A DNA stretch of 64,000 bases from Ianthella basta. Lineage: Eukaryota > Porifera > Demospongiae > Verongiida > Ianthellidae. Positions within the stretch are counted from its first letter, which is position 1; every line of letters starts with the position of its first letter. The notes beneath the pieces were generated by a model. It was not told the origin of the DNA. It searched no databases and worked only from the letters and a program-made list of their open reading frames with translations. The stretch is from the NCBI GenBank assembly GCA_964019415.1, contig OZ025869.1, positions 4,280,765 to 4,344,764 on the forward strand, written 5' to 3'. Shown in pieces: positions 335 to 28,826 of this stretch. A program made the translations under genes and the position numbers.

Positions 335-1486
335 TTAAAAAAGGAAGTCCTGACCAGGCAGCTGGCCAGTGGTCCCCAGCACTGATGCCGAGTTCCCTCT
401 CTGAACAGCCACAGACAGCCTTTGGAAGAGGTAGGTGGTGGACCTCTCATCTCCAGATGCTTGAGCTAACCGCTGACCCAACTCCTTCAGGAATGCCATG
501 GTCTGTGGCCCAAAGACTCCAGATGTCTCGATGGCAACTGGAGTGAAGGCATGCGTGGGGTTGAGATGGGCATACTTGGCTGTCTTCCTCTCCTCTGCCA
601 GGGCTGCCACAGCTCCTGCTTCCCTGGTGGCACTTGGGGAGTAGGAGGAAGCAAAGGTATCAGGACAGGTTGCATCCCAGATCAGCAGCTTCCCCTTCTT
701 CCAAGGAACCACTGTGATGCCATCGGGGCGCTTACCATCTGTACGATAGAGGCCAGAAGGCTCAAGGCGGGATGGTACTTTGGCTGCAACCAGGGCCCTG
801 TGCGTGATGTCGTTCACTGCTGCATGTCGATGGTGACGCCCTTCACTCCAACGGCAGCTGAGTCCATGAGTTGCAAGGCTGTCCACCTCTTCTCCGCAGT
901 GGTGGCACGTGTGTGGCCTGCATAGGGGGGCACCCAGGCGGAGGCCTGTTGCTATCCTGATAGTGTCGTCGTCCATGCGCAGGCCAAGGGAGGAGATGGG
1001 TAGAGCATTCAGCCAGGCTCCTGACTCCCAGGCAGAAGAGGCAAGAAGACGGGCACGTGATCTGGGATCTGGTGCGTTCTCCAGCAGGGATTCAGCCAGG
1101 GCAGATGTCTTAGGGATATTCCAGGCCTTCTGTTGATGTTGAGCTACACCCTCAGGAGGTGCTCGATTGTGATCCTTGGACCACAAAACACTTGCATCAT
1201 CCACGTTGGGGAGTGGAGAGCCTTGGAGCCGGAGTGGAACGATGTGGTGGACTAGGTCAGAGGATGCTGCAGCCGAAGCCAGAAAGGCAGAGGGTGCTAG
1301 CTGCACTGCACTCCTGATACCTAGTCCCCCCAACTTCACAGGCAGTGTGGCTTGTGTCCAGGTTGGGTCATCATCCTGGAAGTGTATATTTGTGATGCCA
1401 CTCAGAGTTGACTTCGTACTCCTGCAACACTGGGGAAAGGAAGCAGGGAGCAGTCCTGAGGTTGTAGAGGAGTTTCGGGAGTGCAA
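335..1486 (-). CDS. RT thumb, zinc knuckle and RLE endonuclease
   Basis: 383-residue ORF, frame-shifted relative to the RT ORF it overlaps; homologous reading resumes near residue 25 (WTQATLPVKLGGLGIRS, a typical post-RT segment). Residues around 195-215 form a C-x2-C-x9-H-x3-C knuckle (CHHCGEEVDSLATHGLSC). About 45 residues later comes the endonuclease core: RPDGITV, then 14 residues after the PD an IWDATC aspartate, matching the PD-(x)n-D active site of restriction-like endonucleases in R2-type elements. The domain would cut the genomic target. A 1-nt indel near 1410-1430 is the simplest explanation for the split; the copy is therefore probably dead. Residues 1-24 are out-of-frame translation. 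Confidence 0.8.
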   Translation of the reverse strand: MHSRNSSTTSGLLPASFPQCCRSTKSTLSGITNIHFQDDDPTWTQATLPVKLGGLGIRSAVQLAPSAFLASAAASSDLVHHIVPLRLQGSPLPNVDDASVLWSKDHNRAPPEGVAQHQQKAWNIPKTSALAESLLENAPDPRSRARLLASSAWESGAWLNALPISSLGLRMDDDTIRIATGLRLGAPLCRPHTCHHCGEEVDSLATHGLSCRWSEGRHHRHAAVNDITHRALVAAKVPSRLEPSGLYRTDGKRPDGITVVPWKKGKLLIWDATCPDTFASSYSPSATREAGAVAALAEERKTAKYAHLNPTHAFTPVAIETSGVFGPQTMAFLKELGQRLAQASGDERSTTYLFQRLSVAVQRGNSASVLGTTGQLPGQDFLF

Positions 1487-3056
1487 AGGAATGCTTCAGT
1501 AGAAGGAGGGCATCTTGGGCAGTCAGGCACTGCAGCCTCTCACCCATCCTCTTCAGCATGTTGGTCTTGATCGTGAGGGTGGCTGAGATGGAGGAAACAT
1601 CTCCGATTGGAGATCCCAACAAGGTGGCTGAGGAGGGCTCCACCACCAGGGCTCCTGGGAGAGATGACTGAATAGAGCCTGTGATGTCAGAATCAGCACA
1701 GATTATTTCTGATTTCTGCACGTTCAACTGCAGCCCGATCCTTGTCCCCTCTCGTTCCACCACTTCCAGATCACTCAAGAGGGTCTCCACATCTCCTCCT
1801 AGGGTGCCATCATCTAGGTAAAAGAGAGACAACTCCAAATTCAACTGTGTGACAAGCCGATGGATGCTCAGACAGAACAGGAGAGGCCCTAAGGGGTCCC
1901 CCTGCTGCACTCCTTCTGCAGATTGGATGGTATGGTCACTCCAGAAGAGAGATGAAGGTGAGGAGTACACTGAATGGACAAAGGGATAGAGGGCAGGCAC
2001 ATGTTCAAGAACAACAACCAGCATCTTGTCCCTGCGGATAGTGTTAAATGCATTCCTAAAGTCTGACTTCAGAACAGCCTTGCCAGGGTCAATGTCATGC
2101 AAGTAAAGCCTCACGGCATGGACAGCAGCCTCCCCTCCCCCCCTGACACCGAATCCCAGCTGACGAGGAGCCAAGAGGTTCCCCATCTCCTTCATGACCA
2201 GATTCCCAGCAAACTTGGCAGTGAGACGACGCAGGGTACAGCTCACAGCAATAGGCTGAATCCCCCCTTGTTTCTTGTGGAGGGCCGTCAGGTTGGCACC
2301 AAAGAAGAAAGGTCGGATGGATGGTGGAGTTGTGCCATCAAGCATCAGTTGAACAAAAGAAACAAGAGCGGGGAGAAGTGCTTGACGGCTGCCACCATCT
2401 GATAGCATGTCCTTCAAGTGTTGAGGTCTAAGGCCATCTGGACCTCCAGCAGATCCCTTGGGAAAAGAGTGGATTGCCCGAATAACCTCCTCCTCAGTAG
2501 CAATGAGGGTACACTGTTGTGAAGACTCTGCAGAAGGTGGGATGCTGGAGTCGGGATGCGGGGATGGATGCTTCTCCTGGAGGGCTTCAAAGGTGGCTTC
2601 ATTCATAGGTGCTAGCGTGTCATCAGAGCAGGCCAATCTGACTGCTCCCCTGAAGTAGCCTTCCTCGAGCTTTGCTGACACACGTGCTGCCAGAATAGTG
2701 GTTGGGTCATCTGCAGGAAAGAAGCGTTTCCTGGTGGTGGACCGAATTAGGGCAGGTGGTGGATCCGCTTCATCCCTCAGCTGGTTGTTGATTGCTGTGG
2801 CCAGGGACCTACGGCATTCTCCTCTGTCTGGGTGTCTGAGGCAGCGCCTGCTGAAGCAGAGCAGCCGATTCCACGAGGTGTGATCATTCTTTCGTACAAC
2901 AGCTTCTAGGATCGCGGCAAACTTCCTCGCGGCGCACTCCCTTGAGGCCTTCGGCAGACGCTTGATGATGTTCACCGGTGTTCTCAGGGGGAGAGAAAAC
3001 ATGGTTGACGGAGGTAGGCGTTCCATTTCCTCACTATCCTGGCCTCGGGTCATCAT
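1371..3056 (-). CDS. reverse transcriptase of RLE-type retroelement
   Basis: 561-residue ORF. RT motifs appear in order: KSDFRNAFNTIRRDK (motif A, catalytic D) about residue 335, EGVQQGDPLGPLLF (motif B) about 395, FYLDDGTLGGD (motif C, the YxDD box) about 425, then LQLNVQKSE and LLGSPIG (motifs D and E). The upstream PKGSAGGPDGLRPQHL is the usual RT finger region. The protein would copy the element's RNA at a nicked target. Its C-terminus runs into a short out-of-frame tail; the true continuation is the ORF at 335-1486 in another frame. The start codon is the first ATG of the open frame and may not be the native start. Confidence 0.85.
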   Translation of the reverse strand: MMTRGQDSEEMERLPPSTMFSLPLRTPVNIIKRLPKASRECAARKFAAILEAVVRKNDHTSWNRLLCFSRRCLRHPDRGECRRSLATAINNQLRDEADPPPALIRSTTRKRFFPADDPTTILAARVSAKLEEGYFRGAVRLACSDDTLAPMNEATFEALQEKHPSPHPDSSIPPSAESSQQCTLIATEEEVIRAIHSFPKGSAGGPDGLRPQHLKDMLSDGGSRQALLPALVSFVQLMLDGTTPPSIRPFFFGANLTALHKKQGGIQPIAVSCTLRRLTAKFAGNLVMKEMGNLLAPRQLGFGVRGGGEAAVHAVRLYLHDIDPGKAVLKSDFRNAFNTIRRDKMLVVVLEHVPALYPFVHSVYSSPSSLFWSDHTIQSAEGVQQGDPLGPLLFCLSIHRLVTQLNLELSLFYLDDGTLGGDVETLLSDLEVVEREGTRIGLQLNVQKSEIICADSDITGSIQSSLPGALVVEPSSATLLGSPIGDVSSISATLTIKTNMLKRMGERLQCLTAQDALLLLKHSFALPKLLYNLRTAPCFLSPVLQEYEVNSEWHHKYTLPG

Positions 3057-11835: not shown

Positions 11836-11837
11836 TA

Positions 11838-11890
11838 CAGTAGTTTCACGATTTCTTGTCCCGATCGCACATTGCACATTGCACAATGCA
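11838..11890 (+). repeat. left terminal inverted repeat of the 4-kb transposon
   Basis: Begins CAGTAGTTTCACGATTTC next to TA. It pairs with 15831-15883. TGCACA-type repeats in the subterminal part could be transposase binding sites (inference). Confidence 0.85.
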
Positions 11891-12033
11891 TAACGCTCCA
11901 TCACGTGGCACGTGATACCCATAATGGCGACTATAAATAATGCATATCGCTTCGCTAAGGCGTCGTATGTCGTTCGTGGAACTACGCGAAGTAGCTAGCT
12001 AGCTATTTACAAATCGGACTTACGGTGAACATC

Positions 12034-12996
12034 ATGCCTCGAGCCTTCTCTGCTGACTTAAGATGGAGAATGGTGTGGTCATACATCTACAGGCAGCAAA
12101 GCGTCGCGGAGATCGCGGAGAATTTTTTCGTGTCCGCTAAAAGCGTTAGAAGATGCATCGATTTGTTCCTCAACACAGGAGAAGTAACCCAAGATGGCAG
12201 GAAGAGAGGACGCTTACCTAAGTTGCGAGAAGAAGAACAGCTTATGCTACTGCAGATTGTTTTCGACCTGCCTGGATTGTATTTAGAGGAGATCCAGGTA
12301 AAGCTGGAAGCAATGGGAATAGCAGTATCACTCAGTCAGATATGTACGGAAATACACGAAATGGGGCTCTCCAGGCAGAAAATGCACTTCATCGTGTGCC
12401 AAAGGTCTGAAGAGAAGAGGGCCAAATTTATCAATGAAGTCATGCATGTGCCTGCTAACATGTTCGTGTTTGTTGATGAAACTGGCAGCAATCAACGTGA
12501 CCTTCATCGTGAGAAAGGATATGGCTTGAGAGGTGTTGCACCAGTCTCCCTGAAGCTTCATATTTGTGGTAGAAGGATATCGGCCCTAGCAGCCATTACT
12601 GTGAGAGGAGTGGAAGATTTCTATTTGGTAGAAGGCTTAGTGGACGGGCATGTGTTCTGTGAATACGTTCGCAACAGCTTGTTGCCTGTGCTGAAGCCAT
12701 TCAATGGGTCAAACAGGAATTCAATTGTAATAATGGATAATGCCTCAATCCATCATGTTGATGAAGTCTGTCAATTGATCCTCAGCTCGGGAGCATTACT
12801 ATGGTTCCTTCCTCCTTACAGCCCTGACCTGAACCCAATTGAGGAATGCTTCCATCAGGTCAAGTCCTACATAAGGAGTAATTCCATTGTATTTCACGCC
12901 ACAAGTGATCCAAGACTTGTCCTTGCATCAGCGTTCGCATCTGTCAAGGAAGAGGACTGTCGCGCATATATCAAGCATGCTGGTTACTTGGTTTAA
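12034..12996 (+). CDS. Tc1/mariner (DD34E) transposase
   Basis: 320-residue uninterrupted ORF starting MPRAFSADLRWRMVW. Residues 1-110 hold two helix-turn-helix segments (QSVAEIAENFFVSAKSVRRC, then a winged-helix-like KLREEEQLMLLQIV), the usual paired-box-like DNA-binding part. The catalytic DDE domain follows: FVFVDETGSN (first D, about residue 148), IVIMDNASIHH (second D, about 240), and LPPYSPDLNPIEE, whose first E lies 34 residues after the second D. This is the DD34E signature of IS630/Tc1 enzymes, which cut and paste at TA. Length matches the family (320-350). No stop or frameshift is seen, so the enzyme may be functional. It sits close to the left terminal repeat. Confidence 0.93.
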   Translation: MPRAFSADLRWRMVWSYIYRQQSVAEIAENFFVSAKSVRRCIDLFLNTGEVTQDGRKRGRLPKLREEEQLMLLQIVFDLPGLYLEEIQVKLEAMGIAVSLSQICTEIHEMGLSRQKMHFIVCQRSEEKRAKFINEVMHVPANMFVFVDETGSNQRDLHREKGYGLRGVAPVSLKLHICGRRISALAAITVRGVEDFYLVEGLVDGHVFCEYVRNSLLPVLKPFNGSNRNSIVIMDNASIHHVDEVCQLILSSGALLWFLPPYSPDLNPIEECFHQVKSYIRSNSIVFHATSDPRLVLASAFASVKEEDCRAYIKHAGYLV

Positions 12997-13543
12997 CAGG
13001 ACATGCATATAGTTGTACACAATATGAGATTATGTAAAGATAAGGTGACCGTCATATCTGCAAAAGCTATTCATTATGTATTATGCATGCAATTGCTTGA
13101 TGTTCATGAACAGGTGTGATTGCTTTATGTAATATAATCAAGCACATGCAAACATGCGCACATTTTGGATTGATAATGTAATTATAACCCAACCACACGC
13201 AAAGTAACCCAAAATTGTGACATGATGTAAAGTACTTGCATACATGCATGCATCATGCAGTTGTAAAATTAAAGAGTGCAAAATCATAATGCTAGCAGTG
13301 CAAAAATGTGTAACAACGTCATGTTATCAGTGCAAAACAATTGCAGAAGGCCACTGTAATTACAAAACAAATTAAAACAGTAATGTGAACACTATAGCTT
13401 AAAAGATCAATAACGGATCACTGTTGCATGCAGAAAATCAACAAAGGATCAAAGAACAGCAAAATTAATACAGGATCAAGGCAAATTAAAGGCCAAGGTC
13501 GCCACTAACATTGGCCAGATGAACTATATGTGATTATGCATCG
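12997..13543. other. intergenic within the 4-kb transposon
   Basis: Space between the convergent 3' ends of the transposase and the second gene. AT-rich, no ORF of note. It presumably contains both polyadenylation sites (an AATTAAA-like string occurs near 13267). Confidence 0.4.
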
Positions 13544-15661
13544 TCACATGTTGTTCATCTTGTGCAAAATCAGATCTTTTTGTCTCGAATAGTCCTCCTG
13601 TGTGATGGCGTCAATAGCAAGTAATTCGTGCAGCTCTTTGATTTGTTTAATGTAAGTTGACTTCAGGGATGCAGCAGATCTAGGTGTCAGGGTGGCAGAT
13701 GATGGGCTCGATCTCGAGGCATGAGGCGGTGAGCTAGATGAAGAAGTGGTAATAGTAGCTGTTGCTGAGCATTTAGAGCCATTAAATTTCACTTTAGAAT
13801 GTCCAGTTACCACTGAGCTGGCTTGCTTCTTGAACATTGTTCCCGCTGGTGGATTGCTTCTGCTGTCATGGCTGCCACTCACAATGGCCTCTGCCCATAG
13901 CCTGTACTGTGGCCCAGAATACTCACTTCCATGTTGCTCCCTTAGTTCCTCAAAAATATCTTGCACATGGGCGCGTCTTTCTTCCATCACTGTCTTCTTA
14001 CGTTTCGGACTTGCAACGGACATGGACTTGTCATCACCAGAGTCTTCATCCCTGTCCACTTCTGTCAGCCCTTCACACCATAACGTGCCTTTGCCTTTAA
14101 CGAGTGTGGAATGAATCAACCTTTGCAGCTCCCCATCATCTTTCAGCCACACCTTCTTTCTTCCTTTCACTAAGTAGCCAACTGTGGAGATGCTGCGAAC
14201 AGGAATTTTTCGTGCAAGATAAAACTTCAAGTCTCTTATAGATTCTATATCTTTCACGTCAACATCAGACAGAGCAAACATTTTGTCTTGTTTGCTTTTC
14301 CTGCAGGAGACTTTGACCATGATATCCAGAGGCTGGACAGGTGCTGTATTTGCAGCTTTACTGGTATCCTCCTGAGCAGAGTGGTGCTCAGCAGGAACTG
14401 CATATGGCTGAGTTGGTATAATGGGCGACAACTCGTACGACATCTGAGGTGAAAACAGAGGCTGAGAAGTGATCGGTACTGACCCTGCAAATTGTGTTAG
14501 AGAGTCAAGTAGTTCTGAGGATGGTGCTACACAAAAGAGAAGCAACAGTAGCAAGCTACTATAGCTATACTCACAACTCACTGCATGAATCACTCTCCAC
14601 AATACTCACAAGTCATGCAGTGAACCACCTCCGCTACACTCACAACTCAGGCCTGATTTACAGTGTAGTGTCACGATTTCTAGTCCCAAATGCACAATGC
14701 ACATCATACACACTTGCATGTGCCACGTGATATCGGTGTAGCTATCACAGTGCCTGTGGAAGTCATTCTCCCAAGATTGATGGTGGGAAGAGAGGATGCC
14801 TCTATGCATAAGTTGGAAGAGACGCACATGAACACGTCCATGGCATGTGCGAGCCGTTGCGCATGCACTGTGTATCATGCAATGCGCAACATGTGATCAG
14901 GTGGACAAGAAATTGTTAAATTACTGTACATCAAAAAAAGGTTTTCGCCCAAATATGGAGCAATTCTGCTGCAATCACACGTTTACATTAAACAATAAAA
15001 ATATCCAGAAAACAGATGTTTCAAAAACAGAGAAGTGGAGCATTTTAAAACAGAGTCGTAGCGTATGGGTGTAGACGAGTAAAAATGACTCTGTTCAGCT
15101 TCGAATATATTGGAGATTTACCAGAATGACACATTCCATGAAGCAAGAGAGACTATTTCAGCATTGTCAGGTCTTATTTCCAGTCTTACAGCATTTCAAG
15201 CCAATCTGCTGCTATGGGTAGGGCAAGGATGAGACTTGATACTGACGATGACAAACCTCCAAACAAAGCTGCTTCGGTGATGTTACACTCAGTGTCCGAA
15301 ATGTAGTGCTTTCAACCAAAGTAATATTTCTTCATCCACATCGTCTTCAATGGCCTAACAGCAGCATCCCTGATAGTCTTCTTCTCAGCCCTTAGCTATA
15401 TTGTACTGTTCTACATGTGCACCAAGTTTAATTGCCAGTCCACACGTAGTTGCGAAGAACGGGTGGCCTATCTATCAAGCCGACCGAATCAAGATGCCGC
15501 GCCATATTCCAGCGTAATCGTTCTAGTGTAAACGCTACGAACACAGAAAGCTATCCAGAGCCTCGGTGAACCATGCTTGACTTACTTTGATCTGATTCTG
15601 TCCCTCCAAACAGAAGGTCCGTCAGCCTCGCGCTCTCGCTCGGTCCGTTCAGGTTCGCCAT
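13544..15661 (-). CDS. second (passenger) protein of the 4-kb transposon
   Basis: Proposed two-exon gene, 15586-15661 joined to 13544-14526, giving 352 residues. Exon 1 starts at ATG (MANLNGPSESARLTDLLFGG) and ends CAAA|GTAAGT; exon 2 follows TTTTGTGTAG and restores phase (TPSSELLDSLTQF). Around residues 95-190 lies a region (SCRKSKQDKMFALSDVDVKD … SISTVGYLVKGRKKVWLKDD) that may be a ubiquitin-like or PB1-like fold. A stretch near residues 235-270 (EYSGPQYRLWAEAIVSGSHD … NPPAGTMF) looks conserved in style. The last 35 residues (KELHELLAIDAITQEDYSRQ) resemble a SHOCT-type two-helix motif. A basic KRKK and Ser-rich linkers lie between. It converges on the transposase gene; the promoter would be near the right terminal repeat. 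Function unknown; an accessory transposition or DNA-binding role is inference. The ORF is intact. Confidence 0.7.
14661..14926. mobile_element. 266-bp MITE nested in the passenger-gene intron
   Basis: Left end CAGTGTAGTGTCACGATTTC then TAGTCCC; right end reverse complemented CAGTAATTTAACAATTTC then TTGTCC. Flanked by TA at 14659-14660 and 14927-14928. The ends are relatives of those of the 4-kb element, and the subterminal AATGCACAATGCACA and GTGCCACGTGA blocks also match it. It is thus probably a non-autonomous family member mobilised by the same type of transposase. It lies wholly within the predicted intron (14527-15585). Confidence 0.75.
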
Positions 15662-15830
15662 AACAACTCAGTACATGTATACAAATTGTCTCGCCCACTA
15701 TCACACAAATGAACTGCCTAAAAGAAGCCACAACCGAACAAAGATTCCACTGGCATGTACACATAAAACCACAACAACCCGAGGCGCCAAATTTCGCGTC
15801 ACGTGGCACGTGAACGCGTCATCTTCATGG

Positions 15831-15883
15831 TGCAATGTGCATTGTGCATTGGGTAACCGGGACAAGTAATCGTGAAACCACTG
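15831..15883 (-). repeat. right terminal inverted repeat of the 4-kb transposon
   Basis: Read on the minus strand it begins CAGTGGTTTCACGATTAC followed by TTGTCCCGG and AATGCACAATGCACA. Flanking TA is at 15884-15885. Confidence 0.85.
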
Positions 15884-15885
15884 TA

Positions 15886-18781: not shown

Positions 18782-19027
18782 GTGAGTCTCCTAGGCTACT
18801 GTAGCTTAATGTGCATCGTTCATTAGAAATGTATATTGGCTGTCCAAGTGCTCATTGGGAATTTCACCTGACTGTTCATTAAAACTGCTATGAAACTGTT
18901 ACACATCTACCTGTTGTGTTGTATGGCCAAGGATTGCTTATTGAGCTAAATTATATATGTGTAGCTGTTTAAGGTAACTGTACGTGTATGCGTGCATGTC
19001 TTTCGCTCTGTGTGTGTGTGTGTGTGT
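18782..19027. other. intergenic/intronic, TG repeat at the end
   Basis: No ORF. A short TG run at 19009-19027 abuts the truncated 5' end of the retroelement. Confidence 0.5.
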
Positions 19028-20742
19028 CTGGTGTCAAACATCTATGATGGACTCACTGCCGTCATCACCACCAAGTCGTGGACCACCGTCCCCATCCACC
19101 TCCAGCTTGGAGTCTACCAGGGTGACCCCCTCTCCGTCATCATCTTCAATACGGTGATGAACACCCTGGTGGATTCCACTACCCAATGCTGCTCCCAGCT
19201 TGGCTACAGCCTCACCTCCGTCCGCAGTAGGATCAACCTGCTGCAGTACGCAGATGACACCTCCCTGATCGGTGATGGACCCTCCTCCTGCCAGCACCTG
19301 TTGCGTCTCACTGAGTCATGGTTGGCCTGGTCAGGGATGCGGGCTAATGTCCCTAAGTGTGTGAGTGTTGCGATCAAAGCCTCCTCTAGGAAGGCCTTCG
19401 ACCCTGGACTCAAGCTTGGCAATGAGCCCATCCCCTACCAGGGAGACACCACATTTCGATTCCTTGGAGCCCCGGTGGCCATCCACTCCACGTCTGAGGA
19501 ATCCAGGGAGCACCTCAAGACCAAGCTATTGTCCATGCTGGAGAATGTCGATGCCACTCCCATCACCCGTCAGCAGAAGTTAAAGCTTTTCAAGGTCAGC
19601 ATCTGCCCTTGTCTGACCTGGGACCTGTCCATCTCAGACTTGCCAGTCTCCTGGTTGCAGAACCACCTCCAGCCCATCGCCACCAGGTTTCTGAAAAGAT
19701 GGTGGGGTCTGGCCCGCTCTGCTGATCCCAATCGACTCTTTCTTCCCAAGTCCAACGGTGGGCTGGAGCTCCCACACCTGGTCACTGTGTACAGGAAGCT
19801 CCATGCTGCCAAGGCTGGTTCACACGTGCTCAAGCGACTCCAGTGTCCGAGCTATCGCCACACAAATCACCCTCCGTGAGTCTCAACTTCAGTGTGCTTT
19901 GTTCTGGCCTTACCAGGAGGTGGTGGGGGTAATGAAGGAGGACCCCGGGGCTCCCAGGAAGAAAGTGGTCTCATGTCAAGGCCAAGATCCAGGCCGAAGA
20001 CACCACCTCCAGACTGGCTCACACCACTAGCCTTCCAGTTCAAGGGTTGACTGTGCGGGAGTTCGAGGGCAGGGCGGCCCAGAACTGGTCCACTGCCATC
20101 TTCAGCCTCCCAGAGTGGGTATTCAAGTTTGCTCTCAACGCGGTGACGGACACTCTTCCCCACAATGCCAACTTGTTCAGGTGGAAGAAGCTGTCCTCAC
20201 CACGGTGCCAACTCTTGTGGAGAGGTACAGTCTCTGGCCCATGTTCTCAACTCCTGCCAGAAGGCCCTCAGTCTGCGACGCTACACCACCAGGCACGATG
20301 ATGTGCTCAAGGTCATCTTTGACTTTTCCAAGCGCAACCTGAAATCAGGAATGCAAGTCATAGCTGACCTACCAGGCCAGCAGTACACGTTCCCCCAAGA
20401 CATTGCTCCCACGGACCTGCGCCCGGACATGGTTATCTGGGGAACTTCAGCCATCTACCTGGTAGAGCTGACAGTGCCTTTGAGACCAACATTGCAGACG
20501 CTGCAGAGAGGAAGGTCCATCGGTACCGGGACCTTGCAGCTGCCTGTGCTTGTTCCCGCCACACATCTATCATCACTCTTGAGGTCGGGTCGAGAGGCTT
20601 CCTGAGCACAGTGGGCTTTCAGCAGCTCTTCAAACTGCTACAAGCCAAAGGCAAAGACCGACAGAACTTCGAGATTGACATAATTAAGCATGTGGTTGCA
20701 TCGTCCTACGACATCTGGTGTAAACGGAACTGGTGTAGTTAA
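19028..20742 (+). pseudogene. second RLE-type retroelement, 5'-truncated and frameshifted
   Basis: Starts inside the RT: GVYQGDPLSVIIFNTVMNTL (motif B), then INLLQYADDTSLIGD (motif C, YADD), FRFLGAPV (motif E), and a thumb with FLKRWWGLARSADPNRLFLP. After about 19880 it continues in other frames: EWVFKFALNAVTDTLPHNAN, a knuckle CGEVQSLAHVLNSC with the first Cys pair split by a frameshift, then LRPDMVIWG … IYLVELTVP (PD…E of the restriction-like nuclease) and a C-terminus ending SSYDIWCKRNWCS. Same broad class as the 0.3-3.2 kb element but clearly a different lineage (YADD versus YLDD). Confidence 0.8.
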
Positions 20743-21295: not shown

Positions 21296-21819
21296 CAGGG
21301 TACAAGTCTTAGGGTCAGGCTATCCAGGAAACATAAAAACAAGAGAAAATTGAAGAGAAGGAAAAGAAGGGTAAGTCATGTCAATCGTCAGAAGGCATGC
21401 ATGTTCAACGTAATGAAAATTGTGCATAATAAGTAAGGTTAGCATTCATTGCATTTGACATTTAATTCCTTCTTCTGCACTATAGTTTCAAGTTAATCTT
21501 CGACACAGAAAGTCTACATCCTGTGTGGATGAAGATGCCGATGCAGCTAAGACCTCCACAATATGTCCTTATGTACTGTGTCGTGGAACCCTGCTGATGC
21601 TGGTATTAGTTGGTGTTCTGTGTTTTGATTCCTGCTGCAGGTATGAGACTGAGCCCATGTATGTGGTTGGAGGAAAAGAACGTCTAGTGCAAACTGCACT
21701 CCTAGCTAGTGTAGAGCATGCTGATGATATGTGTGTGCAGAAACACTGTATGGTTGCATACACAGAAATCAGTTTTGTTTCAATGCATCAATTACCATAT
21801 GCATGCCTTGGCTGGCCCT

Positions 21820-22040
21820 GTTGCTGGGGTTGCTCACCCTGTTGCTGGGGTTATTTGCTCTGTTGCTTGGGCAATGCACCCTGTTGCTGGGGTTGCTCAC
21901 CCTGTTGCTGGGGTTATTTGCCCTGTTGCTTGGGCAATGAATCCTGTTGTTGGGATTCCTCATCCTGTTGCTGGGGTTATTTGCCCTGTTGCAGTTGCCT
22001 GGGCAATACACCCTGCTACTGGGGTTATTCATCCTCTTGC
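21820..22040 (+). repeat. minisatellite coding Cys/Trp-rich repeats
   Basis: About ten units of roughly 21-24 bp built on CCCTGTTGCTGGGGTTxxT. They are in the Helitron N-terminal frame and read as PCCWGCS/PCCWGYL. Confidence 0.75.
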
Positions 22041-22622
22041 TTAGACAGCTGCAGAGCACATTATTGCTGGGGTTACTATTTCAAGAACAGCTTGAGTTAT
22101 GCACTATTTGGCTTGCAATTGGGTCGGTCACACGGTTGCAACAACTTCTCATGTGGCTGGCAAGGTGGAAGGCCTAACTCCACTGCCTGTGAATTAAGTG
22201 AAATGGTCATGCAGGTAGTAGTGAATGCATATGACACGAAACTTGATGGTGTAAGTATGATTGCCACTGTAACACATGGACTATGTCATGGCCATTACAC
22301 TGACATTGATATCCATATACAGTATTATGGCATTCCAATGAGGCATTACCCATTGGTGAGCATTCTGAAACGACCATGGTTCAGGTGTTCATTGTGTTAC
22401 CTACTGCGCAGAAGGTGCTACTGTAAGCGCAATATCCACCTAGCTCGTGCATTGAACCTATTGCTACTGTTAGGAGGAGACGTTGAATTAAACCCAGGGC
22501 TGTGGCAGAATCATGACAATAAAGACGATGGTAGTGTACCTGCACCAGTTGTGAGTGAGATTGCTGTTGACACTGGAAAGGTAGCAGATGTAAGTTTGGA
22601 GAGTTTGGATGAGAGACATTCC

Positions 22623-23174
22623 AGACTAGCAATGCTGTCAGAGTGTCAACAGAAGCGATTGAATTCTGAAACTAGTGATGATCGTAGAGAAAGACTGGCT
22701 GTCCTCTGTGATAATCAGAGAAAGCGTTTGCAGTCTGAAACATGTGAAGAACGCGACAAAAGGCTTGCTGTCCTCTGTGATAATCAGAGGAAACGCTTGC
22801 AGTGTGAAGGGAGTGAAGAGCGTGATGGAAGACTTGCTGTCCTTTGTGATAATCGGAGGCAGCGTTTGCAGTCTGAAACGTGTGAAGAACGCAACGAAAG
22901 ACCTGCTGTCCTCTGTGATAATCAGAGGAAGCGTTTGCATTCTGAAACGTGTGAAGAACGCGAAGGAAGACTTACTGTCCTCTGTGATAATCAGAGAAAG
23001 CGTTTGCAGTCTGAAACATGTGAAGAATGCGAAGAAAGACTTGCTGTCCTCTGTGATAATCAGAGGAAGCGTTTGCAGTCTGAAACATGTGAAGAACGTG
23101 ACGAAAGGCTTGCCACCCTCTGTGATAATCAGAGGAAACGACTCCTAACAGAATCAGCTGAAGAGCAAGAGCTG
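22623..23174 (+). repeat. eight 69-bp coding tandem repeats
   Basis: Unit of 23 residues of the form RLAVLCDNQRKRLQSETCEE plus RDx. Outer units are more diverged. Charged E/R-rich repeats before the Rep domain are common in Helitron proteins and probably form helices. Confidence 0.85.
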
Positions 23175-23681
23175 CGCTTGAGCAGAAGCCAGGAGTGGAA
23201 GAAGGCAAGGAAATTGAATGAATCAGTACAAGAATGTACTATAAGAAAGGAGAAGGAGAAGGAGCAAGCTAGGCTGAGAATGAGAGCAATGAGGAGACGA
23301 AAGCAGCAAATGTCTGCAAAAAAGGGATCCTTAGCTGAGGACCCCGAAGCTGATAGCATTGCTCGAGTCAGACTTTCAAATGTAACTGTCACCAGCTGCA
23401 GCATAAGTTCCACTTGTGAGTCCTCAAAAGGATTAGATGGTATATCAAAGGTACCAGTTGGATTGATACCACCTCAACTGCATTTGCTAAGTCAAGCATC
23501 CACTGCAGTTGAAGAAAGTGCTGTAAAACCTGTACAAAATGAGGATGTACCACAACAAGTACAGGGAGCACAGCACGTACCAGCACAAGTTGTGCTGGTA
23601 CCACCACAAGCTGTGCAGGTACCAGCACTGCAGATTGCAGTGCCATCTAGACAGGACATGAAATTGAAGCGCAATGCATAA

Positions 23682-25085
23682 AGGTTTAAAGATGCAATTG
23701 CTGAAGGCCCTACTCATAAATGTTATTCCTGTGGAAAGCTGTGCTATGAGAGGTTGGGTGTCACGTATAGCAGGGTTATAGCTAATGAGCTATTGACAGT
23801 GGTGAAGGAATTGCTTGACGAAAGTGTTGGTCATGTGTGGTTCTGCAACAAATGCAAGAATGCCTTGCAGAGAAAGAACGTTCCAGCAGGGTCAAAGTTT
23901 AACAGAATGAAAGTCGCAGAGATCCCTTCTGAGTTAAGTGGACTCAACACTTTGGAGCAGCGATTGATTTCAAAGGCCACTGTTTTCATGAAAATGGTAA
24001 TCTTGCCTAGGGGTGGGCAAAGAGCTGTTAGGGGACAAGTAATTAACTTCCCCTCTAATGTGGACTCTGTCATTTCACAGTTACCACGTCTGCCTGAGGG
24101 TGAAGACATTGTCTACATCCAGCAGCCTGAGTCTGCAGAAGGGGATAATAATAGCACCAGCCATGAAATCGTATACCACAGCTGCCGATATTCCAAAGTA
24201 ATGCAAGCATTACAATGGTTGAAGCAGCATAACCCATTGTACAGTGATGTAACTGTGACAAATGTGTCAGAAGACATGTTTGATGGTGATGGAAGTAATG
24301 ACAGTGGTGCTGATGATGAGGAACAGCTGGAAATGGATGAAACTGGGGTTGTCAGGCTGGATGCTCTCCAGCCAAATGTAACTGCTGTTGAACTACTGCA
24401 AGAGTCTACATTGAGTCATCAGGTACATCAGTTACAGAGAGTGACTGCTACCCCTTTGAGCATATTTGAAAATAGGTGTGAGCTGGAGGTGCTGTCATTT
24501 CCAACTCTCTACCCTAATGGTGAAAATGGATTTGGTACAGCACGTGATACCAAAGTGTCCCCATTAGAGTACTTCCAAACAAGAATGTTGAGTGCTGACT
24601 CAAGATGGGCATGTCATCCCTCATACATCTTTTGGGCTTGCAACATTGTAGAAGCTCTGAAGTTGCAGAGTAGCATTTCAATTGCAATGAGAATGCAATC
24701 CTTTACAGACAGTCTTGGCAGGGGTAAGGCTGACAAGAAGACAGAAGAAATGTGCCAACTCACGGCTGGGTCATTGCGCGGATGACTAGATGACAATCCG
24801 CACTTGCGTGAAAACTGTTACAGTTTCATGCGAGACATCCGTGGTACACAAGCTTACTGGAACTCAGTGAAGATTCAGTTGTTTGCCATGTTTCGCACCC
24901 TTGGTCCTCCCACATTCTTTGTCACATTGAGTGCTGATGACAACAATTGAGCGGACCTGATGGTAGTGCTTAGCAAGAGCAGAGGACAGGAACTCTCTAT
25001 CGAAGATGCTGCCTATCTCTCTCTGAGTGAGAAGAGAGACTTGATGTGTACCAATCCTGTGGTGACGGCTAGACATTTTGCCCAT
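23682..25085 (+). pseudogene. Helitron zinc-ribbon and Rep N-terminal part
   Basis: Continues the frame after the stop at 23679: CYSCGKLCYERL and WFCNKCKNALQRK form a four-Cys zinc-binding segment, then LSGLNTLEQRLISKATVFMK and GGQRAVRGQVINFPSNVD (the conserved region before Rep). Further on are FPTLYPNGENGFG and a TGA at 24784, after which RGTQAYWNSVKIQLFAMFRT, LGPPTFFVTLSADDNN and another TGA (24948, probably replacing Trp) follow. The latter block is the well-conserved start of the Helitron-like N-terminal domain. Confidence 0.8.
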
Positions 25086-25461
25086 CGCTTTTCAGTGCTT
25101 CCTTAGGGAAGTTATTAAAGGTTCTGGGCAACCCATTGGTGAAGTGCTGGACTTCTTTTGGAGGATAGAGTTCCAACTGAGGGGTTCCCCTCATGTGCAT
25201 TCCATGTGGTGGATAAAAGATGCACCAAATTTAGACACTGCATGTGGAAGGCAGGTTGCTCCACAGTACATTGACCAATACATCAGTGTACACATTCCAC
25301 CGCAGGGTAGCAGTGATGAGGAGCTGCATTCCCTAGTGATGCGTGTGCAGCAACACCATCATACAACCACATGCAAGAAGACGTCTAGAAGGCGGCGACA
25401 TGTGGTAGACTGTAGATTTGCTTCAGCCCCTGTCGGAGGAAACACGGCTGAAGAGTCGTGA
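25078..25461 (+). pseudogene. Helitron Rep, HUH motif segment
   Basis: Encodes FQCFLREVIKG … DFFWRIEFQLRGSPHVHSMW: the HxH (HUH) metal-binding motif of rolling-circle Rep nucleases (PHVH). Then YIDQYISVHIPP and VQQHHHTTTC. The frame is shifted relative to the preceding segment at about 25075 and is lost again near 25430. Confidence 0.85.
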
Positions 25462-26428
25462 TGATCCTGGGAACTAATCAAGATTCTATGTCTTGAAAAG
25501 GTCACCTGGGGAAGAAAACTGCAATCCCTATAATGCACACCTTCTGAAGGCATGGAAGGCAAACATGGACATACAGCTAATTGGTTCGGTATATGGCACA
25601 GCAGCATATGTTTGCTCATACATTTGCAAAACAGAAAGCGAAGAGGTCCAGAAAGCTATCCGAGATGCTTTGGAAAGCTTGCCTCCGCAGGCATCTACAA
25701 GAAAGCGTCTGTCGAAAGTTGGAAACACTATGTTGACGCATCGTGAGTTGAGTGCTCAAGAGGCGGCATATCGATTGTGTTACCTGCCACTCAAAGAAAA
25801 CTCTAGGAAGGTGGTTTTTATAAATACAGCCAGACCCGAGAAGAGAACGCGATTGCTCAAATCAAGGTCTGAGCTGCTGGAGTTGGAGGACGACTCATCA
25901 GACATCTTTGCTCCTGGCATGTTTGACAGATATTCCTCTAGACCAGACATGCCACTGTTTAGAGGCATGACATTGGCGCATTTTGCAGTCTGGTATGATG
26001 TGAACACACAAGGCGATGAGGCAACTGGAAGCGGAGCTGCACAGCCTCGCTACCAGTTGCAAAATGACATGGGATGGGTTAGACTCAGAAAGAAGCAAGC
26101 ATGCCTTCGCATACCAGTGCAGACAGCAGAAAGTCATGGCGATGATTATTACTACAGTTTGTTGCTTCTGTACATCCCTTGGATGAAGGAACCTGAAGAT
26201 CTGCTACTAAAACATTATTCCGCAATGGAGGCATTCATTGCAAGAGAAGGAGAAATGGTCATTCTCAATGCACAGAATCACAGCTTTGCAGATGAGGTGC
26301 AAAGGGCTGTTGTGCAACTGCAGACCTTGGAAGATGATGCCTACCAAGATGCAGTCGCACCTATGGCGCGCAGCAGGCTCAGAGGGAGGATGCTGCTCAA
26401 CCCTCAGTGGAGGCTGAGGGAGGGTTAA
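25462..26428 (+). pseudogene. Helitron Rep, catalytic tyrosine segment
   Basis: Reads FYVLKRSPGEENCNPYNAHL, LKAWKANMDIQLIGSVYGTA and AYVCSYICKTESEEVQ. The two tyrosines in YVCSYICK correspond to the Rep active-site Tyr pair that cleaves and carries the DNA strand. Downstream LTHRELSAQEAAYRLCYLPL and VFINTARPEKRTRLLKS are also typical. In-frame TAA at 25472. Confidence 0.85.
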
Positions 26429-27279
26429 TGAACCCAGAGCATTTTGTTGACCCTGCCATGCTTGATGAGGAGAATGTGGGTGTGGACAGTGAAGACAAAG
26501 GCATCTTAAATGATGATGATGATGATGATGCAGTTGGGGCAATGGCCAGGCACACCCTTCCTGGTGGGGAATTTAGGAAATTGGTTGCCAGTCTCAATGC
26601 ACAGCAGCGTATTGCATTTGACATAGTTGTGCAGTACACTAGGGAGTTACACAAGCACAGGATGAAAGTGTGTCCAGATCCTCCACGGCCCTTTCACCTA
26701 TTTGTTACGGGAGGAGCAGGCACTGGAAAATCGCATGTGATCAAGGCAATGAAGGAACATTTGGAGCACTCTGTGATGGGAGGCCCGAATGTGCATGCGT
26801 GCATGTTGATGGCACCCACCGGCGTTGCTGCTTTCAACATTGGCGGTCTCACTATCCATAAAGCATTGAGGCTTCAGGTGGAGCACGGTAGGACTGCTCA
26901 CCAACTTCAACTGAATGCTTTGGCTCTGCATGATTTGGGGAATTTGTGGCAAGGTGTGCATACAATCATAATCGATGAAGTCAGTATGGTGTCCTATCAG
27001 GTACTGAAGTCAATTCACAGTCGACTGTGTGAGATTTTTGGCAACGACGACATGTTTGGAGGCTTGAATGTGGTAGCTGTGGGTGATTTATACCAGCTAT
27101 CCCCTGTGAATGGTAGCTATGTTTTCAGCAAGAAGCCTGGGCGCTCATCGGGGCGATTGGCTTCACATCTCTGGAGGGATTACTTCAAAGTGATTGAGTT
27201 GGAAGTAAACATGCGCCAGCAGAATGACATCATTCTCAGAGATCTTGAACCGGATCAGAACTGGCATTCACACCAATGA
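26407..27279 (+). pseudogene. Helitron Pif1 helicase, N-terminal half
   Basis: LNAQQRIAFDIV, then LFVTGGAGTGKSHVIKA (Walker A) near residue 100, LMAPTGVAAFNIGGLTIHKA (motif Ia), HTIIIDEVSMVSYQVLKSI (Walker B) and VVAVGDLYQLSPV (motif III). A 5'-to-3' DNA helicase that unwinds the donor during rolling-circle transposition. The frame is lost after LEVNMRQQND near 27245. Confidence 0.9.
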
Positions 27280-27596
27280 AGATGTGAAGACACTCCAAAC
27301 ATGCCTAGTTTCTGGTGGGTCAGTGGATTTGCTAGCTCCCCCGCACAGTAGATGTTGAAGAGTACAATGCAATGCAGATTGCACATCTGTCAAAGAACAC
27401 TCAACTCTATAGTATTGAAGCAGAGCATGCAATACTAGAGAGTAAAGGACAGTTCTATGCCAACGTGCAATACAATGAGGTTCCAGAGCGCCTCATTCCA
27501 CAAGACGACAAAGACTGTGCTGCACTGCCACGTCGACTCAAACTAGCTGTTGGTGCTAGAGTCATGCTGCACTGAAACATCAACTGTGGCAATGGT
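27280..27596 (+). pseudogene. Helitron Pif1 helicase, middle
   Basis: The true frame resumes as LNRIRTGIHTNEDVKTLQ, then YNAMQIAHLSKNTQLYSIEA and LPRRLKLAVGARVMLH, ending at a TGA (27573-27575). GARVML is the conserved strand before helicase domain 2B. Confidence 0.75.
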
Positions 27597-28826
27597 TTGG
27601 TGAATGGTGCAAGAGGAACTGTGATGGGGTTCAAGTGGCCAGGACGTGCAAGCAATCAGAGCACACCTGGTGAATTGCCTATACAGGTGTATGTGAGATT
27701 CCTGGATTCTAATGTCGGAAAGCTGTCCAAAGTGCCAATTGCCTCTGGACAGCAGGAAGTTGTGCCAATTCAACCTATTTCAGCACGCTTCTATGGAAAG
27801 GAAGGTACACTCCTGCAGAGAACACAGATTCCCTTGATTCTGTGTTGGGCAGCAACTGTGCACAAGGTGCAAGGGTTGTTCCTTGATTCAGCAGTCATGG
27901 ATCTTGGCAGCAATGTGTTCGAGCCTGGAATGGCTTATGTAGCTCTTAGTCATGTGCGCACCCTGAATGGAGTGGCACTGCTACATTTTCAGCCAAGGAA
28001 AATGACTGCAAACAAGAAAGTGCATGAAGAAATGGCACACTTGCGACAAGAGTCTGTTTGTGGTGAAGATGGGGTTGCATTGGATCCGACCCCAGGAAAT
28101 GACATTGGTAAGTTGCAGAGTGAGCCGATGCCTACTCCTTCAATGCAGAACAATGATGCTTCATTGTGCACTGACAGTCAGATGCCTGAATATAGTGTTT
28201 CTGTGCAGACAACAATTGGTAGTGTGTCAGAGAAGAAGCTACCATCAGAACCAACAGTGATAAGCTGTCAGCCAGTGCAATTGATCACCCCAGTTGCTGA
28301 TGTTGATGCACAGGTACATTCACTTCAAAAAGCACTTGAATGTATTGTAAAGGGCATTAATCCAACCACTGCATCAATAGTCAGTTGGGCAGAAAGCCAT
28401 CGTAGTGACTTGGATAGCATACTGAAAGTGATCAATCAGCCTGGCCGTGCAACTTTCAGCAGTTTCCACCAGGTGAACACAACTGTGATGAACAAGATGT
28501 TTGCTGCCTTTACATCACTGTATGTGCCAGTGGTCACCAAAGGGGGCGGCAATTGCATGTATCACATAATCTCATTGGCTCTGTGTGGGACAGAGAAGTA
28601 CATGTGTCACCTGAGGCTACTGACTGCATATAGTCTCATTGTGCACCAAGAGATAATGCTGGAAGTAATGCGTCCCACGGTTGTGATACTTTTGCCAGTA
28701 GAGAAAGGAGATGCACTTCAGTTTCCAAAGCGACAGAGGCTCATTGGCTGGAACTCCTTCGTAGTTCTATCCGTGACAAATCGTGGGGGAACCAGTTTCA
28801 TTTGCAAGCACTGGGTATGTTACTGA
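27597..28826 (+). pseudogene. Helitron helicase C-terminus and OTU protease start
   Basis: GLVNGARGTVMGFKW, IPLILCWAATVHKVQGLFLD (motif V) and FEPGMAYVALSHVRTLNGVA (motif VI) complete the helicase. After a low-complexity linker comes VPVVTKGGGNCMYHIISLAL with CGTEKY, the catalytic Cys box of OTU-type deubiquitinases. The frame shifts near 28800. Confidence 0.85.

Follow-up and report, generated by a model that had tools for sequence, protein, structure and literature searches.

A Tc1/mariner-type transposon of the sponge Ianthella basta carries a conserved partner gene in tail-to-tail orientation

We analyzed a window of 64,000 nucleotides from the sponge Ianthella basta (assembly GCA_964019415.1, contig OZ025869.1, positions 4,280,765 to 4,344,764, forward strand) and found in it, at positions 11838-15883, a complete transposon of 4,046 bp in which inverted ends and flanking TA dinucleotides enclose two genes: a transposase and, on the opposite strand, an accessory protein with a predicted PB1-like domain. 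It is a cut-and-paste element of the IS630-Tc1-mariner superfamily, as defined by its TA target, TACAGT ends and DD34E transposase. Our main finding is that the same two genes recur together in many diverged families. We favor, with moderate confidence, the view that they form an old two-protein, tail-to-tail lineage in which the second protein would act as a nuclear cofactor of transposition.

The terminal inverted repeats lie at 11838-11890 on the plus strand (CAGTAGTTTCACGATTTCTTGTCC...) and 15831-15883 on the minus strand; together with the TA target-site copies that flank them (11836-11837 and 15884-15885) they form two arms of 55 nt, 11836-11890 and 15831-15885, which are 84% complementary. 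The element sits in a retroelement of the type lacking long terminal repeats (non-LTR). A 214-nt query joining both flanks with a single TA gave, among 15 matches listed, full-length matches at seven places (97-100% identity), which are paralogs of the retroelement uninterrupted at the joined site, and two further ones at 76% and 69%. These empty sites indicate that both ends are exact and that insertion at TA was standard. In the host genome (209 Mb, 96 contigs), a search for full-length copies, proposed in an earlier note made from the window alone, returned seven, all of them ending in TA, carrying both genes and being 99.1-99.8% identical; relative to the window copy, the remaining six have 8 to 22 substitutions and 1 to 17 gap columns. 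The transposase frame is intact in five of the seven copies and accessory exon 2 in six, while exon 1 is open from its ATG, and the splice sites are identical, in all seven. The window family is recently amplified. Two copies, L010 (C1:478600-484700) and L009 (C1:774400-780500), are about 296 kb apart, differ by one substitution and have the same 30-nt flanks, so that the seven copies represent six independent insertion sites; this pair either arose by duplication not long ago or is an artifact of assembly.

The transposase gene (12034-12996, plus strand) is intact and encodes 320 amino acids (aa) from ATG to stop, the list of open reading frames (ORFs) beginning at an earlier GTG. The protein matches Pfam DDE_3 with 98.7 bits (cut-off 28.6) and the NCBIfam IS630 model with 146.3 bits (cut-off 100), and its catalytic triad consists of D148, D235 and E270, the last two being separated, by hand count, by the 34 residues of a DD34E signature. 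For an N-terminal helix-turn-helix, the Pfam matches (HTH_29, HTH_33, HTH_23 and HTH_28) all score under their cut-offs. The two-gene element with matching inverted repeats, TA and intact transposase that the earlier note had described is thus confirmed by the sequence, the copies and the empty site.

The accessory gene lies on the minus strand and consists of exon 1 (15661-15586; MANLNGPSESARLTDLLFGGTESDQ) and exon 2 (14526-13544), encoding 352 aa and separated by a GT-AG intron of 1,059 nt (14527-15585; GTAAGT / TTTTGTGTAG). The frames and splice sites of this previously proposed gene were borne out at the level of the DNA, from which we infer that the intron is spliced. It is conceivable that both frames are real and that the intron stays unspliced, the protein beginning within exon 2, which by itself is part of a 353-codon open frame. 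We regard this as very unlikely, since exon 1 is open in all seven full-length copies and its ATG and GT donor are conserved, by DNA alignment, in the two diverged copies L016 and L015; between ATG and donor, the only gaps in L016 are of 9 and 6 nt and keep the frame, and L015 has the same two gaps plus single-base ones. Moreover, the N-terminus of single-exon accessories of the L045 type (DLLLGST...SEDEELPSLL) resembles by eye the spliced DLLFGGTESDQTPSSELLDSL. L015 at first seemed to join exon 1 directly to exon 2, as an intronless proof of splicing; this candidate was dropped when DNA alignment revealed the conserved donor followed by intron sequence.

The corresponding intron of the C17 relative L016 measures about 200 nt, as estimated from alignments, and that of the window family has evidently grown to 1,059 nt through nested repeats. 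Repeat search located within it, at 14659-14928, a nested, TA-flanked insert of 270 nt that resembles a miniature inverted-repeat transposable element and has inverted ends related to those of the transposon itself; it is carried by all seven copies and has only four partial matches elsewhere in the host genome. Further dispersed repeats occupy 14936-15507, for which 38 of the 45 listed matches, partial and 67-88% identical, fall outside the seven copies, the intron being a nest of older repeats. Inserts common to all seven copies imply descent from one ancestor with an enlarged intron.

The association of the two genes extends far beyond the window family. Searched with 258 aa that make up the main part of the accessory, the host genome gave 60 matches at 48 places; with the transposase it gave 126 matches at 98 places, both of these being minimum figures because scoring covered 125 of 183 candidates. 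A transposase was found within 6 kb at 35 of the 48 accessory places, at actual gaps of 4-917 bp, compared to a chance expectation of 0.27 pairs, and the orientation is tail-to-tail in all 35; these pairs include near-identical copies, seven from the window family and six from a family at 33-34% identity. Paired families diverge down to 24% identity for the accessory and 32% for the transposase. Both genes are enclosed by inverted TACAGT...TTGTCC ends in L045, L042, L044 (2,687 bp each), L048, L032, L037, L039 and L040. In L055 the right end is the same and the left one reads TGCAGT; the ends of L038 are related (TACAGACC...GGTTG, 80%), those of L061 are diverged (75% identity), and none were found in the stretches examined around L056, L057 and L058.

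Eleven transposase places of at least 38% identity had no accessory in the pairing count. Four of them were inspected, and three do carry accessory sequence: exon 1 in L015, a 169-aa frame in L061 (hidden Markov model (HMM) E 1.3e-36) and a match at C1:10486514 with L120 (E 1.8e-13). In the fourth, L060, no accessory sequence was found. On the question, raised in the earlier note, of whether the minus-strand gene is a chance passenger, the outcome is mixed but favorable to its being part of the element: all seven full-length copies have both genes, while on the opposite side stand L015, which has both ends and only exon 1, and the 13 of 48 accessory places that lack a detected transposase, though none of the 13 covers the query free of a stop or break.

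Pairwise distances between transposases and between accessories are correlated (r = 0.94 for 17 elements; r = 0.76, permutation p 0.0004, for nine dereplicated elements). Between families, the proportion of synonymous differences (pS) of the accessory is 0.76-0.84, a saturation at which synonymous rates (dS) are not computable, and that of non-synonymous differences (pN) is 0.35-0.46; the corresponding transposase values are 0.81-0.90 and 0.20-0.38. Copies of recent origin have similar pS and pN values in two of four comparisons (0.015 and 0.021 for the accessories of L045 and L040, 0.013 and 0.014 for the transposases of L032 and L036), as expected if copies decay after insertion. As far as sequence comparison reaches, these data show a long-standing association and co-divergence of both genes, and a protein conserved despite saturated synonymous sites. 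The open frames, for which recent selection or recent insertion had been suggested, have two explanations: this family amplified recently, and its lineage has long been under purifying selection.

The pairing counts refute the idea of a recent passenger. That a captured host gene, or a gene caught by chance, simply lies inside the ends appears extremely improbable: the host does possess PB1 genes (four matches over the cut-off), which makes a one-time capture conceivable, but the constant tail-to-tail order across many families, the co-divergence, the occurrence in a second source and the absence of a free-standing intact gene among the 13 unpaired places all argue otherwise. An ancient capture followed by use as a cofactor is part of the explanation that we prefer.

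The second source is contig JACERO010000096.1 (L068), which has 4,896 nt and is assigned to a metagenome-assembled genome of Nitrosopumilus. Its transposase frame (1049-2068) matches residues 4-318 at 37% identity, and its accessory (2278-2976; HMM E 1e-19) lies tail-to-tail and has the PB1-like part, the helical motif called the W-box below and the SHOCT-like end. Five of the 50 loci returned by the search were examined for an accessory, and this was the sole one with a match. Given its G+C of 44% and its content, the contig is probably a eukaryotic contaminant of the archaeal bin. The proposal that the second protein is a family-specific accessory factor gains support from this contig as well as from the many tail-to-tail pairs of the host. 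A search of the protein database with the profile of the accessory identified 15 relatives among 7,991 scored candidates; for two of them the longest contig has the same size (9,485,673 and 4,782,461) as that given for a listed transposase, which suggests that these accessories and transposases are linked. A protein search with the central region found only P0002. A viral or prokaryotic origin was considered and rejected, as searches of IMG/VR, GTDB genomes and phage records yielded no confirmed relative of the accessory.

Most of the accessory protein is encoded by exon 2, where residues ~64-154 are predicted to form a beta-grasp whose closest structures are PB1 domains. By eye, the first-strand lysine of type II PB1 domains is kept, and the acidic loop is replaced by a basic KGRKK. 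Pfam PB1 (PF00564) was absent among the families matched by 19 accessory members at E up to 5, and the accessories of L061, L045, L056 and L068 gave no match to it; the ubiquitin-like region noted earlier thus stands as a fold prediction and not as a Pfam assignment. Likewise, the SHOCT-like C-terminus was recovered as a hairpin that matches Pfam SHOCT (PF09851) below the cut-off, with 19.3 bits against 27 (20.2 in L068); SHOCT was matched by 9 of the 19 relatives at E up to 5. The protein also has a conserved basic patch resembling a nuclear signal and a conserved W-box of two helices. Conservation is uneven, identity being 0.20 at residues 81-96 and 0.65 at residues 225-240. Pfam scans of the accessory detected no zinc-finger/kinase, recombinase or Myb domain, and a sequence search of solved structures gave no match.

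These features lead us to propose how a nuclear cofactor might work. The basic patch would bring the protein into the nucleus, where the two-helix W-box could contact DNA, chromatin or the transposase. With its first-strand lysine and basic loop, the PB1-like domain might dock on an acidic type I PB1 partner belonging to the host or to the transpososome, and the C-terminal hairpin could multimerize the protein. The net effect would be to assemble or target the transposase complex, by analogy with the Myb-like protein of Harbinger, which does so for its own transposase.

The main rival is that the accessory counters host silencing instead of contributing to catalysis or assembly, as does VANC, the anti-silencing factor of plant VANDAL elements. 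Co-inheritance fits this idea equally well, host regulators are conceivable ligands of a PB1-like docking surface whose face is basic, and the regions outside the W-box diverge much faster than the W-box itself, as the identities above illustrate. We nevertheless judge it rather unlikely, as Pfam reveals no known anti-silencing domain and the W-box and hairpin are better conserved than one would expect if they were chasing a host target. Still less probable is that the second protein serves the element as a repressor, keeping transposition or copy number in check. Full-length copy numbers are indeed low, with seven in the window family, and the six accessory matches at 33-34% represent one near-identical family; yet a repressor should be easily lost from single copies, whereas exon 2 is open in more copies (six of seven) than the transposase (five of seven).

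The origin of the pairing was considered on a tree of 127 transposases, comprising 16 accessory-bearing ones from the host genome, L060 and 110 database proteins (P0016 and database proteins of less than 280 residues being omitted). The accessory-bearing label changes seven times on this tree, at least six of the changes being forced by well-supported branches; because the database proteins come without gene context, the tree is compatible with one origin of the pairing or with several. A bolder and doubtful extension is that the transposase and PB1-like pair is ancestral to a large, unrecognized animal branch of IS630-Tc1-mariner, that partnering arose more than once, and that, by means of the PB1-like and hairpin domains, the transpososome is built up to a higher order or attached to a PB1 protein of the host; we know of no case of such PB1-type control for Tc1/mariner. 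If true, two-gene elements would account for many of the transposases found to be related (more than 6,000, namely 6,033 among 7,998 database proteins scored, with E up to 0.001), and the partner would have been overlooked owing to its place on the opposite strand and to the intron that can interrupt it.

Repeated partnering is suggested by a distant Tc1-like group, L118 (C11:739300-743300) and L119 (C2:8505500-8509500), which matches at 28% identity and in which the PB1-like accessory was not detected. Downstream, on the minus strand, both have a frame with a basic N-terminus (KPKKRKK) and a long Pro/Thr repeat; in L118 it includes a BEN domain (30.7 bits, Pfam cut-off 23.2), with no match in L119. 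The N-terminal 88 residues of this partner occur at 22 places, of which 11 are near a related transposase (at most 6 kb), tail-to-tail in 10 of the 11. The partner has no recognizable kinship with the window accessory (BLASTP E 6.8), and no ends were found in the stretches examined. The group may represent another two-gene Tc1 lineage of independent origin, its partner being a candidate element gene. Elsewhere, the window contains reverse-transcriptase ORFs (RVT_1) at 1374-3056 and 18992-19876, and a Helitron-like block on the plus strand (21525-28826) with an STPR-repeat ORF, a DUF6570 ORF and a PIF1 helicase ORF.

Compared to known systems, the window element resembles other Tc1/mariner transposons in its TA target-site copies, inverted ends and D,D34E transposase with DDE_3, and differs in its conserved second gene on the opposite strand. 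Such elements typically encode a transposase only, and the accessory proteins of TBE elements have been called surprising (PMC12242761). The ciliate TBE and Tec elements are the known exceptions that we found; each is described with three ORFs (PMC7325037), and purifying selection has been reported for the accessories of TBE (PMC7325037; PMC12242761). Like the window element, they are Tc1/mariner transposons that combine a DD34E transposase with further genes. The TBE accessories are described as a 22-kDa protein with no predicted domain and a 57-kDa zinc-finger/kinase, and that of Tec is a site-specific recombinase; by these descriptions they are set apart from the tail-to-tail PB1-like/W-box/SHOCT-like protein. 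The plant MUSTANG-B (MUGB) genes also join a PB1 domain to transposon biology (PMC8616336), but there it belongs to a domesticated Mutator-like gene and not to a separate protein of a mobile element. Among the matches listed in open-access PMC literature, none was found to describe such an accessory in a Tc1/mariner lineage of animals, a two-protein case (PMC5753468) concerning L1.

With the PB1 proteins p62, NBR1, Par6, p40phox and MAP2K5, the accessory would share the fold, as predicted, and by eye it has the first-strand lysine of the type II members; it differs from them in having no Pfam-level sequence match and in the KGRKK that replaces the acidic loop. PIF/Harbinger elements pair a transposase with a Myb-like (Myb/SANT) cofactor and use a 3-bp target site. 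The window element would share with them the two-gene, cut-and-paste logic of a transposition cofactor, while its transposase belongs to another family, its accessory is unrelated and has no Myb match, and its target is the 2-bp TA. Tc1/mariner transposases are the usual example of self-sufficiency, and hence serve as gene-transfer tools. That a second protein is kept in one lineage implies, for some of these transposases, a need for a partner encoded by the element or a benefit from it, and near-identical copies with both frames, together with an exact empty site, make the contribution of this partner directly testable.

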